From positions 755,501 through 819,500 of the forward strand of contig JAODUO010000114.1 in NCBI GenBank assembly GCA_025642075.2: a stretch of 64,000 bases of DNA, in the 5' to 3' direction. The position numbers and the translations under genes are program-made. The notes below the pieces were generated by a model. It was not told where the DNA came from. It made no database searches and was given only the letters and a program-made list of their open reading frames with translations. Within the stretch, counting starts at the first letter, position 1. Every line of letters begins with the position of its first letter. The DNA is from Ridgeia piscesae (lineage: Eukaryota; Annelida; Polychaeta; Sabellida; Siboglinidae). Shown piece after piece: positions 3,619 through 58,900 of the stretch.

Positions 3619-6600
3619 CTAGTCTTGCCATGGCGACCAGACACCCCCATGTTTGCTTGGGTCACAGTTAGGGTCCATTGGAGGGTAGCGCACAGGCACC
3701 GCAGTCAAGTTGTAGAATACGAGTCGCTCCAGCAGAGATTTCACAATGTCAGGACGTTTGTCGGAAAGGTCATGGCGCTCCCAGGGGTCAGTGGCGACAT
3801 CAAACAGCCAGATGTTCTTCTTTGGCACAAAACGCAATGTGTCATCTGTGTCAGCGCTGACATGAGGGGGTGGCACCCATCGACTGTTCCCTGTCAAGTA
3901 CACAACTTTCATATCTCAACGATCAGTAGAGCAACATCATTACTGATTATTTGTTTGTAAGTATAACATGCTGAATGGTCACATCAACAGTCACCAGAAC
4001 AACATCTCAAGATTTCAGTGTTAATGTATACTTTATTCCTACAAAAACACAATGCGATGTGCACCTTATAAAACTGCATCGACACTAAAGAAATAACACC
4101 AGTGTGCGACGCACCTTCACTGTAGACCCAGACACACACACACACACACACACACACACACACACACACACACACACACACACACACACACACACACACA
4201 CACACACACACACACACACACACACACACACACACACACATAAACACACACACACACACACACACACACACACACACACACACACACACACACACACACA
4301 CACACACACACACACACACACACACACACACACACACACACACACACACACACACACACACACACACACACACACACACACACACACACACACATTATAT
4401 CATATAGTATATATGCTAGTTTGGATAATTTATATCATTATGCACTGGTAGTTTGGTTATCACTATCATCTATGAATATATACAAATGTTTTTTTACACA
4501 ATTCCTTCCTTTAGGCGTGGCAATTTTTCTGAGAATTTATAGAGCTTTCCTCTGTGCTCTGCACAATGTAGTTCTACATTATTCATGACTATCAGGGGTA
4601 GTTGAAATAGGGTTGCTGGACAGTTTCATGATGATCGCGAAAATATATTAAAATTTATAATTTCTACAATTTTGTAAATACTGTCGCACAAATACTTGCT
4701 TCACAATAATAACAACAATGTCACACTGCCACTCTATATCTGTTGCAATCAGATTTTGAGACACTACATCCATCACAAATATAGAAGCACAACATAAATT
4801 ATACCATAAGTAGGCTGCTTGATCAATAAGAAGACAAAGGATATAAACAAGAAAATGCTATATTTGACAGACCTGGGTCTCCAGTGATCAGTTTCCAGTT
4901 GTTCACGCGAACAGCCGCTCTCACTCGAGAATCAAACGTGTTGTTGAAGAGTCGCTCCCCTGCTTGTTGGTACATCGGGTCAATGTTATGGAGCAGTTCC
5001 TTCCTTGGGCTGGGTCCACCTTCACTGCAGACCCAGAAAGAAATAACATCAGTGTGCGACACACCTTCACTGCAGACCCAGAAAGAAATAACACCAGTGT
5101 GCGATGCACCTTCACTGTAGACCCAGAGAGAAATAACATCAGTGCGTGACCCACCGTCACTGTAGACCCAGAAAGAAATAACACCAGTGTGTGACGCACC
5201 TTCACTGTAGACCCAGAAAGAAATAACACCAGTGTGCGACGCACCTTCACTGTAGAACCAGAAAGAAATAACACCAGTGTGCGACGCACCTTCACTGTAG
5301 ACCCAGAAAGAAATAACACCAGTGTGCGATGCACCTTCACTGTAGACCCAGAAAGAAATAACAGCAGTGTGCGACGCACCTTCACTGTAGAACCAGAAAG
5401 AAATAACACCAGTGTGCGACGCACCTTCACTGTAGAACCAGAGAGAAATAACACCAGTGTGCGAAGCACCTTCACTGTAGACCCAGAAAGAAATAACACC
5501 AGTGTGCGACGCACCTTCACTGTAGAACCAGAGAGAAATAACACCAGTGTGCGAAGCACCTTCACTGTAGAACCAGAAAGAAATAACACCAGTGTGCGAC
5601 GCACCTTCACTGTAGAACCAGAGAGAAATAACACCAGTGTGCGAAGCACCTTCACTGTAGACCCAGAAAGAAATAACACCAGTGTGCGACACACCTTCAC
5701 TGTGAAGAAAGAAATAACACCAGTGTGCAAAGCACCTTCACTGTAGACCCAGAAAGAAATAACACCAGTGTGCAAAGCACCTTCACTGTAGACCCAGAAA
5801 GAAATAACACCAGTGTGCGACGCACCTTCACTGTAGAACCAGAAAGAAATAACACCAGTGTGCGACGCACCTTCACTGTAGACCCAGAAAGAAATAACAC
5901 CAGTGTGTGACGCACCTTCACTGTAGACCCAGAAAGAAATAACAGCAGTGTGCGACGCACCTTCACTGTAGAACCAGAAAGAAATAACACCAGTGTGCGA
6001 CGCACCTTCACTGTAGACCCAGAAAGAAATAACACCAGTGTGCGATGCACCTTCGCTGTAGACCCAGAAAGAAATAACACCAGTGTGTGACGTACCTTCG
6101 CTGTAGACCCAGAAAGAAATAACACCAGTGTGCGACACACCTTCCCTGTAGACCCAGAAAGAAATAACACCAGTGTGCGATGCACCTTCACTGTAGACCC
6201 AGAAAGAAATAACACCAGTGTGCGATGCACCTTCACTGTAGACCCAGAAAGAAATAACACCAGTGTGCGATGCACCTTCACTGTAGACCCAGAAAGAAAT
6301 AACACCAGTGTGCGATGCACCTTCACTGTAGACCCAGAAAGAAATAACACCAGTGTGCGACGCACCTTCACTGTAGACCCAGAAAGAAATAACACCAGTG
6401 TGCGATGCACCTTCACTGTAGACCCAGAAAGAAATAACACCAGTGTGCGATGCACCTTCACTGTAGACCCAGAAAGAAATAACACCAGTGTGCGATGCTA
6501 GTTTGGATAATTTATATCATATGCACTGGTAGTTTGGTTATCACTATATAACACGGTGAAGTGTATTGACGTTATTGTGAATATCACATCTGTGCATGAA

Positions 6601-55900: not shown

Positions 55901-58900
55901 AGATGATAGGGAGGCGTTAGAAGACGGTACTTACAGCTGAGATGATAGGGAGGCGTTAGAAGACGGTACTTACAGCTGAGACGATAGGGAGGTGTTAGAA
56001 GACGGTACTTACAGCTGAGACGATAGGGAGTGTTAGAAGACGGTACTTACAGCTGAGACGATAGGGAGGCGTTAGAAGACGGTACTTACAGCTGAGACGA
56101 TAGGGAGATGTTAGAAGACGGTACTTACAGCTGAGATGATAGGGAGACGTTAGAAGACGGTACTTACAGCTGAGATGATAGGGAGATGTTAGAAGACGGT
56201 ACTTACAGCTGAGATGATAGGGAGACGTTAGAAGACGGTACTTACAGCTGAGACGATAGGGAGGTGTTAGAAGACGGTACTTACAGCTGAGACGATAGGG
56301 AGGTGTTAGAAGACGGTACTTACAGCTGAGACGATAGGGAGGTGTTAGAAGACGGTACTTACAGCTGAGACGATAGGGAGATGTTAGAAGACGGTACTTA
56401 CAGTTGAGACGATAGGGAGATGTTAGAAGACAGTACTTACAGCTGAGATGATAGGGAGGTGTTAGAAGACGGTACTTACAGCTGAGATGATAGGGAGGTG
56501 TTAGAAGACAGTACTTACAGCTGAGACGATAGGGAGATGTTAGAAGACAGTACTTACAGCTGAGATGATAGGGAGATGTTAGAAGACAGTACTTACAGCT
56601 GAGATGATAGGGAGACGTTAGAAGACGGTACTTACAGCTGAGACGATAGGGAGGTGTTAGAAGACGGTACTTACAGCTGAGATGATAGGGAGGCGTTAGA
56701 AGACGGTACTTACAGCTGAGATGATAGGGAGGCGTTAGAAGACGGTACTTACAGCTGAGACGATAGGGAGGTGTTAGAAGACGGTACTTACAGCTGAGAC
56801 GATAGGGAGGCGTTAGAAGACGGTACTTACAGCTGAGACGATAGGGAGGTGTTAGAAGACGGTACTTACAGCTGAGATGATAGGGAGGTGTTAGAAGACA
56901 GTACTTACAGCTGAGACGATAGGGAGATGTTAGAAGACAGTACTTACAGCTGAGACGATAGGGAGGTGTTAGAAGACGGTACTTACAGCTGAGACGATAG
57001 GGAGATGTTAGAAGACAGTACTTACAGCTGAGACGATAGGGAGGTGTTAGAAGACGGTACTTACAGCTGAGACGATAGGGAGATGTTAGAAGACGGTACT
57101 TACAGCTGAGACGATAGGGAGACGTTAGAAGACGGTACTTACAGCTGAGATGATAGGGAGACGTTAGAAGACGGTACTTACAGCTGAGATGATAGGGAGA
57201 TGTTAGAAGACGGTACTTACAGCTGAGATGATAGGGAGATGTTAGAAGACAGTACTTACAGCTGAGATGATAGGGAGACGTTAGAAGACGGTACTTACAG
57301 CTGAGATGATAGGGAGACGTTAGAAGACGGTACTTACAGCTGAGATGATAGGGAGATGTTAGAAGACAGTACTTACAGCTGAGATGATAGGGAGACGTTA
57401 GAAGACAGTACTTACAGCTGAGATGATAGGGAGGTGTTAGAAGACAGTACTTACAGCTGAGATGATAGGGAGACGTTAGAAGACGGTACTTACAGCTGAG
57501 ATGATAGGGAGACGTTAGAAGACGGTACTTACAGCTGAGATGATAGGGAGATGTTAGAAGACAGTACTTACAGCTGAGATGATAGGGAGACGTTAGAAGA
57601 CGGTACTTACAGCTGAGATGATAGGGAGACGTTAGAAGACAGTACTTACAGCTGAGATGATAGGGAGATGTTAGAAGACAGTACTTACAGCTGAGATGAT
57701 AGGGAGATGTTAGAAGACGGTACTTACAGCTGAGATGATAGGGAGATGTTAGAAGACAGTACTTACAGCTGAGATGATAGGGAGATGTTAGAAGACAGTA
57801 CTTACAGCTGAGACGATAGGGAGATGTTAGAAGACAGTACTTACAGCTGAGATGATAGGGAGATGTTAGAAGACAGTACTTACAGCTGAGATGATAGGGG
57901 CCCAGGCATCAGCATTTCCTTTCACTAATTTCATCATCACCTGTTGGACGTCATTGATGATGCTGTCCAAACGTGCACCAACAATATCTGAAAAATTTAC
58001 ATTTACAATTTGTTATGGTCCACAATTCTACATCAACATTAATCTTGATTGTTGTAGCATATTTATGGTAAGAAACCATACAATACTGGCATTTGACAGA
58101 CTTCCTAAAAAACCTAATTTACTACCTCTTCAAAGCTGAACATTTATTGGTGTTTAATTAAAGTAAAATGGCATAGCAATATATTCACTGCCAAATTGTG
58201 TATAAGTTTTATAATCAGATCATAAATGTAGAAATTCAGAACTAACATATACTTAAAATAGGAATAACTATGACTTGGATCATGCTACAAACAGTTACCC
58301 ATCCATGGGTGACCATCGACTTTATATTTAAACAGCATATATTAACTGTCAAATCGTCCAAAACTCCATAATTATTAGGGAAATGTAGTATTTATTTGTT
58401 TGAAATTACAGCAGCTGCACAAAATATAGAAAAATACATAACAGCAAAATGGATATTAATCTGCCAAATTATGCAGTGTTTTCCTTGGTAAAACGATGAG
58501 CAAGATGGTAGGGTGGCCAAGCAATTGTCGAATGCATAATGCGGTGCTATGGTGGTCTGGAGCATGGGAACTATTTTAAAACTAGCTTAAAATGGTACTT
58601 TATTAAGTGTGTTTGAACATATTCCCAAGCATTTAGTGGGGAGAGAAATGACAAGGGAGCATCATGTAAATGTGTTTGTAGCAGTAATTACTTTAAATAA
58701 ATAGTCAGGGAATAGCTATATAAAAGGTGACAATTTTTGCATATTTTGGGCTTAGAAAAAAGCAAGGTGCTCGCTCATTATATAGCAGGGGAAACAAAGG
58801 TGAGCAACTTTTTATTTGACAGATTATAAGCTTTACATTTATACCTAATTTGCTTGTACCTGACGTGTCTTTGCTGACAAACTCGTTGTTGACGGCATCA

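Follow-up and report, generated by a model that had tools for sequence, protein, structure and literature searches.

Mirage-type minisatellites at splice junctions of two unrelated genes in the tubeworm Ridgeia piscesae

We describe here a stretch of 64,000 bases (hereafter the window) from the tubeworm Ridgeia piscesae (assembly GCA_025642075.2, contig JAODUO010000114.1, positions 755,501 to 819,500 of the forward strand), in which six minisatellite arrays each overlap a splice junction of one of two unrelated genes, an arylsulfatase B-like gene (gene 1) and INTS5 (Integrator subunit 5). These arrays are of the mirage type, a kind already known from amphioxus. They probably arose by ordinary tandem duplication and subsequent turnover, selection having kept the exon-most copy.

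Genes and junction arrays

Three protein-coding genes were modelled in the window, which contains 0 N:

3619..23835, minus strand: gene 1, arylsulfatase B-like (exon 1 start approximate); exons 1 to 8 at 23835-23527, 14677-14491, 13749-13556, 13366-13255, 12349-12254, 7725-7485, 5024-4873 and 3890-3619
26083..33637, plus strand: gene 2, paralogous to gene 1 and likewise arylsulfatase B-like; 8 exons located (start approximate)
34915..59066, minus strand: INTS5; exons 2 to 22 located (ends approximate)

Most of the gene 1 exons match N-acetylgalactosamine-4-sulfatase (arylsulfatase B, solved structure 1FSU), and the gene is transcribed divergently from its paralogue. The INTS5 model matches solved INTS5 structures. 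Its exon 1 was not found, and the exon numbering is that of the first-pass annotation, an earlier reading of the same DNA.

Array detection was done with Tandem Repeats Finder (TRF) and junctions were taken from the gene models. The six arrays that the first-pass annotation had placed on splice junctions were recovered with the periods, copy numbers and coordinates claimed for them:

5017..6495, minus strand: gene 1 exon 7 acceptor array, 45 bp x33.0; exon start 5024; 8 exonic bases
8240..12267, minus strand: gene 1 exon 5 donor array, 38 bp x106.1; exon end 12254; 14 exonic bases
13463..13589, minus strand: gene 1 exon 3 donor array, 41 bp x3.1; exon end 13556; 34 exonic bases
36260..36457, minus strand: INTS5 exon 20 acceptor array, 55 bp x3.7; exon start 36272; 13 exonic bases
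38251..38405, minus strand: INTS5 exon 17 donor array, 28 bp x5.5; exon end 38380; 26 exonic bases
55565..57899, minus strand: INTS5 exon 3 donor array, 39 bp x59.9; exon end 57884; 16 exonic bases

Each array contains exactly one splice junction (four donors, two acceptors) and copies 8 to 34 exonic bases along with it. In all six, the genuine splice site marks the exon side of the array and the repeats run into the intron.

The protein models are preserved over the arrays, one intron per array being required. When spliced, INTS5 exons 2 to 20 give a model of which 894/894 residues are identical within a 949-residue annotated R. piscesae protein; exons 21 and 22 were located beyond exon 20. 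By this identity the DNA belongs to R. piscesae or to a very close vestimentiferan (Annelida, Siboglinidae), and an amphioxus origin of the window is rejected. The second-best INTS5 among the matches listed is 42 % identical to the model, and a search with two of the reading frames returned no INTS5 match. For gene 1, the closest R. piscesae database sulfatase among the matches listed is 94 % identical (perhaps a paralogue or an allele), and its residues agree with the model over the joins of exons 3/4, 5/6 and 6/7. A B. floridae sulfatase, also among the matches listed, shows 55 % identity to gene 1.

Two further observations concern the gene models. Exon 3 of gene 1 (13749-13556) shares only 75 % protein identity (49/65 residues) with the closest R. 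piscesae sulfatase, exons 2 and 4 to 8 reaching 95-100 %; from the residues compared, gene conversion or an exchanged exon is possible. GC donors were found at 2/34 modelled donors, i.e. at 37174 (INTS5 exon 19) and 28398 (gene 2 exon 3).

Junction overlap compared with random placement

The first-pass annotation had stated that six of six arrays overlap a junction. This count did not survive a full survey: at a TRF score of at least 80 and a period of at least 10, the window holds 12 comparable arrays after merging, all of them genic, and a junction lies in 6. The six strong arrays without a junction are the following:

14865..19577: array in gene 1 intron 1
23218..23504, minus strand: 47-bp x6 array, beginning at base 23 of gene 1 intron 1 (exon 1 end 23527); 0 exonic bases
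30106..30189, plus strand: 36-bp x2.3 repeat, beginning at base 7 of the intron that follows exon 5 of gene 2 (exon end 30099); 0 exonic bases
36623..37019: 51-bp array in INTS5
43366..48159: 18-bp array in INTS5
50940..52355: array in INTS5

When the score threshold was lowered, junction arrays amounted to 6/24 (at least 50), 6/35 (at least 40) and 7/43 (at least 30), the seventh being an 11 bp x2.0 repeat on the donor of INTS5 exon 9.

In order to estimate the chance expectation, each of the 12 arrays was collapsed to one unit and founded at random in 100,000 draws, using 69 junctions. Over the whole window the mean was 0.74 junction units, and at least 6 were obtained in 3/100,000 draws (P 3e-5); within genic DNA the mean was 1.02 and P(>=6) was 2.3e-4. 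When units within 25 bases of a junction were counted, 8/12 were observed, against expectations of 1.64 (window, P 4e-5) or 2.25 (genic, P 3.7e-4). An earlier placement test with 64 junctions (6/12, mean 0.69, P 2.2e-5) is superseded by these figures. For gene 2, the donors of exons 2 and 6 carried a one-base offset in these tests, so that two of the junction positions are displaced by one base. The window was chosen for its junction arrays after the fact, and the P values say nothing on the genome. Within the window the junction association is real: the claim that overlap exceeds chance stands there with a fair denominator (P about 2e-4, genic).

The first-pass annotation had also remarked that all the arrays lie in minus-strand genes and none in gene 2. 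Literally this is so, no junction array having been found in gene 2. The 36-bp repeat nevertheless begins at the seventh intron base after exon 5 of that gene, and with only three genes in the window the strand pattern carries little weight.

The main rival to our explanation starts from this excess. A mutational process might target splice junctions or the starts of introns, for instance through R-loops or co-transcriptional slippage, so that arrays would be born there. In favour of such biased birth, junctions lie in 6/12 arrays, two more arrays have their edge 7 and 23 bases away, 6 of these 8 are at donors, and the genes concerned are unrelated. Against it, the numbers are small and come from a window selected afterwards, no result bears on R-loops or transcription, and the junction units do not match one another within the window. 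When these units were searched there by nucleotide, matches were confined to the array of origin, except for one unit that also turns up in the following intron of its gene. We regard biased birth as possible, although unlikely.

A more trivial account is chance combined with selective reporting, the junction arrays having been listed and the others passed over. Six other comparable arrays had indeed been omitted by the first-pass annotation. With all 12 counted, however, the P values are those given above (3e-5 for the window, 2.3e-4 for genic DNA), and an independent precedent exists in amphioxus, according to the excerpts available of PMC3087553. Such an account is accordingly improbable.

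Unit variants and splice dinucleotides

Units of the three large arrays fall into a limited set of distinct variants: 22 among 106 in the exon 5 array, 19 among 60 in the INTS5 exon 3 array and 15 among the 32 scored in the exon 7 array. The variants recur and are intermixed along these arrays, a pattern of turnover by exchange or conversion and not of independent decay. The copy at the exon is the most frequent variant in the exon 5 array (23/106) and in the INTS5 exon 3 array (10/60).

Mean pairwise unit divergence ranged from 5.3 to 5.6 % among the three large arrays; the gene 1 exon 3 array (3 copies) reached 7.3 % and the INTS5 exon 17 array (5 copies) 14.6 %. The INTS5 exon 20 array has four 41-base cores, three of them identical and one slightly different in length. 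This length difference inflates the ungapped value of 8.5 %, and the array cannot be ranked. The view that the arrays, from few copies to many, were one process caught at different ages is not supported, since units differ more within two of the three small arrays than within the large ones; copy number therefore does not track age.

Splice dinucleotides behave differently from one array to another. In the exon 5 array the donor dinucleotide is the most variable column of the unit, with GT in 51/106 copies and AT in 55/106. It is kept throughout the small arrays, i.e. in 5/5 units (INTS5 exon 17), 3/3 (gene 1 exon 3) and 4/4 (INTS5 exon 20).

Comparison with described systems

It had been suggested that no named class of element behaves in this way. 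This proved wrong, as the "mirages" of amphioxus had already been described (PMC3087553, PMC3902484); statements on published systems in this section follow excerpts of the papers cited. Mirages are tandem repeats lying over exon-intron boundaries; they were named in amphioxus Adh3, and further cases occur in globin and PGBD5 genes (PMC3087553, PMC3902484). Both 5' and 3' boundaries are affected, with units of 10-72 bp in Adh3 and 150-160 bp in globins, and reverse transcription PCR suggests that regular splicing is undisturbed (PMC3087553). Clusters vary in length, unit variants are homogenised in patches, and the BflGb6 mirage has 3 and 6 repeat units in its two haplotypes (PMC3087553, PMC3902484). 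It has moreover been proposed that new introns may arise from mirages, among other sources (PMC3087553).

The tubeworm arrays share this anatomy. Their units span one exon-intron boundary each in all six cases, at donors (4) as well as acceptors (2), the unit size of 28-55 bp overlaps that reported for Adh3, and patchwise homogenisation goes with a protein that is apparently unaffected, as judged here from annotated proteins only. With regard to concerted evolution that spares the boundary copies, another mirage trait, the picture here is mixed, the exon-side copy being the commonest in two of the three large arrays and a singleton in one. Differences lie in the host, an annelid and not a cephalochordate, and in copy number, up to 106 against 3 and 6 in BflGb6. 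The tubeworm arrays are thus mirage-type, a known kind in a second phylum, and larger than the BflGb6 clusters. A literature search on junction repeats in tubeworms or other annelids found nothing to that effect, most subscription journals being outside its coverage, and a search on mirages with minisatellites and introns found only PMC3087553.

Other systems resemble the arrays less closely. Introners are mobile, intron-generating elements. They occur as the same element in many genes, whereas each junction unit here has, within the window, its own locus, plus the next intron in one case. Intron gain by tandem duplication in a potato RdRp gene (PMC4974935) likewise involves a duplicated segment that crosses an intron-exon boundary; unlike in that case as excerpted, the copies here appear to sit within an existing intron and no new intron is seen in the protein models. 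Earthworm metallothionein genes (PMC12783039) provide large intronic minisatellites in another annelid. Those repeats lie within intron 1 and, unlike here, the available part of the report gives no splice junction in the unit.

Proposed origin of the arrays

We consider it probable that these arrays are mirage-type minisatellites produced by ordinary tandem duplication and turnover, the exon-most copy being kept by selection. Founding would require only that a stretch of 28-55 bp, happening to span an exon edge, be tandemly duplicated. From two copies on, unequal exchange, slippage and gene conversion would expand the array and partly homogenise it, and only growth toward the intron would survive. 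The exon-most copy would be the working splice site, since the protein depends on it, and the remaining copies would leave with the intron, presumably as decoys or passengers and not as backups. Several lines of evidence are in agreement with this scheme. Every array has its genuine site on the exon side and extends into the intron, and the exon copy is the leading variant in two of the three large arrays. The proteins appear to join correctly over the array junctions (the complete INTS5 identity and the R. piscesae sulfatase), the units form the patchwork of recurrent variants that turnover predicts, and amphioxus mirages have, by analogy and as far as the excerpts go, a like anatomy.

Other observations weigh against it. 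Neutral duplication alone does not predict 6/12. The copy at the exon is a singleton in the exon 7 array, situated at the more diverged end (0.090 versus 0.039 at the opposite end). Units of the same array combine a full-strength acceptor with a donor-like site (scored below), so that harmless passenger copies are not guaranteed. Finally, the splice dinucleotide is retained in two large arrays, as AG in 32/32 units (exon 7; TRF counts 33.0 copies) and GT in 58/60 (INTS5 exon 3); this objection is weak, because conservation of the remaining columns is nearly as high (means 0.966 and 0.953, respectively).

An extension that we favour is that the exon copy, fixed by selection, might anchor and re-seed an array otherwise prone to shrinkage or decay, so that junction arrays would outlast free intronic ones. 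Anchoring would account for the persistence of such arrays, although it fails for one of the three large ones: the singleton exon copy of the exon 7 array, at the diverged end, speaks against re-seeding from the exon. In its broadest form, the idea would be that splice-junction amplification recurs in animal genomes (annelids and cephalochordates), the arrays being born or preserved at splice sites because an exon-edge copy fixed by selection anchors a continually re-seeded minisatellite. In this form we hold it to be doubtful. Taken alone, the amphioxus mirages look like a lineage curiosity, and the same anatomy found three times in each of two unrelated annelid genes suggests a wider process. 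The arrays also pose a splicing puzzle, since the transcript must choose the right one among up to 106 near-identical sites, and they may confuse gene prediction and assembly.

Splicing within the arrays, assembly and spare sites

Units could also serve as tiny introns, micro-exons or ratchet points, the arrays being spliced out stepwise and the mRNA left unchanged. By eye, the exon 5 unit reads CTAAC, pyrimidines, then CACAG/GTACT; a comparable stretch is seen in the INTS5 exon 3 unit. Arrays with dual-specific AGGT sites are known in UBC (PMC10809524, in excerpt), and AG/GT likewise occurs within the units of some arrays here. The repeat units of UBC are coding.

Splice sites were scored with a matrix built on the window's own sites, i.e. 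33 true acceptors (minimum 4.1) and 34 donors; the donor matrix holds two donors one base off (gene 2 exons 2 and 6), which makes the lowest donor score meaningless. Units of the two acceptor arrays retain full-strength acceptors, with scores of 11.3 (exon 7) and 8.0. In the exon 7 units, a donor-like AAG/GTGCGT follows 5 bases on, as stepwise splicing would have it; its score of 8.2 corresponds to the 53rd percentile of the true donors. Against this, the four donor arrays score only 3.4, 1.9, -9.8 and -2.0 as acceptors, all under every true acceptor, the two AGs of mini-intron-like donor units (3.4 and 1.9) standing at the 83rd and 75th percentiles of background AGs. In these poor acceptor scores the donor arrays differ from UBC as excerpted (PMC10809524), whereas the exon 7 units, by matrix, hold a good acceptor and a good donor-like site 5 bases apart. 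Moreover, units of 28-45 nt, taken one to one, are short for introns. Stepwise splicing has a slim chance of being correct. As for the protein, the 15 units of the exon 7 array nearest to the exon contain no stop when read in its frame, stops being met farther up; given the 45-bp period, acceptor use in these units would thus add repeats of 15 residues. No such repeat insert is present in the 94 %-identical database sulfatase.

An assembly artefact, by which the true copy number would be small or the arrays collapsed or expanded, is slightly less likely than stepwise splicing. The published R. piscesae assembly was made from Illumina reads with a contig N50 of 10.42 kb, according to an excerpt of its description, and another array of the window includes a run of 417 T. 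Against an artefact, the absence of any N from 64,000 bases is unlike a scaffold of 10-kb contigs, and the window may stem from another assembly; in addition, variants recur among the units, and the three small arrays, at 127-198 bp, do not depend on long reads.

Selection retaining spare splice sites as backups, also proposed by the first-pass annotation, is very improbable: the dinucleotide retention in two large and three small arrays (3, 4 and 5 units) would suit it, but in those arrays it is barely more conserved than the remaining columns, and in the largest array the replacement of GT by AT in 55/106 copies contradicts it, so that for the exon 5 array it is largely refuted.

Other arrays and neighbouring features

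In gene 1 intron 7, fragments related to the exon 7 array lie at the following positions:

4087..4466, minus strand: gene 1 intron 7 fragments, i.e. a 46-bp piece (4087-4132) that matches stretches of the exon 7 array without a difference, and a 54-bp piece (4413-4466) with 98 % identity to the outer flank of the same array

The two pieces follow the order found in the exon 7 array, with an AC microsatellite in between.

The arrays at 14865-19577 and 23218-23504 consist of one 47-bp unit in opposite orientations and flank a LINE-like element in gene 1 intron 1. This element lies on the minus strand, with a reverse transcriptase open reading frame (ORF) at 22105-19745 and a PHD-finger ORF at 23260-22313. 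By eye, a stretch resembling the 47-bp unit was also noticed near 50840, and a long inverted repeat at 50390-50510 in an INTS5 intron.

The 51-bp array at 36623-37019 occupies much of the INTS5 intron that also holds the exon 20 acceptor array, and touches no junction. The 417-T run lies at 45738-46154 within the 18-bp array 43366-48159, and is possibly an assembly product. An INTS5 unit gave 0 matches in the viral and genome contigs searched, a result that is uninformative for a worm. A reverse transcriptase ORF with a DUF6451 domain is found at 503-1417 on the plus strand.

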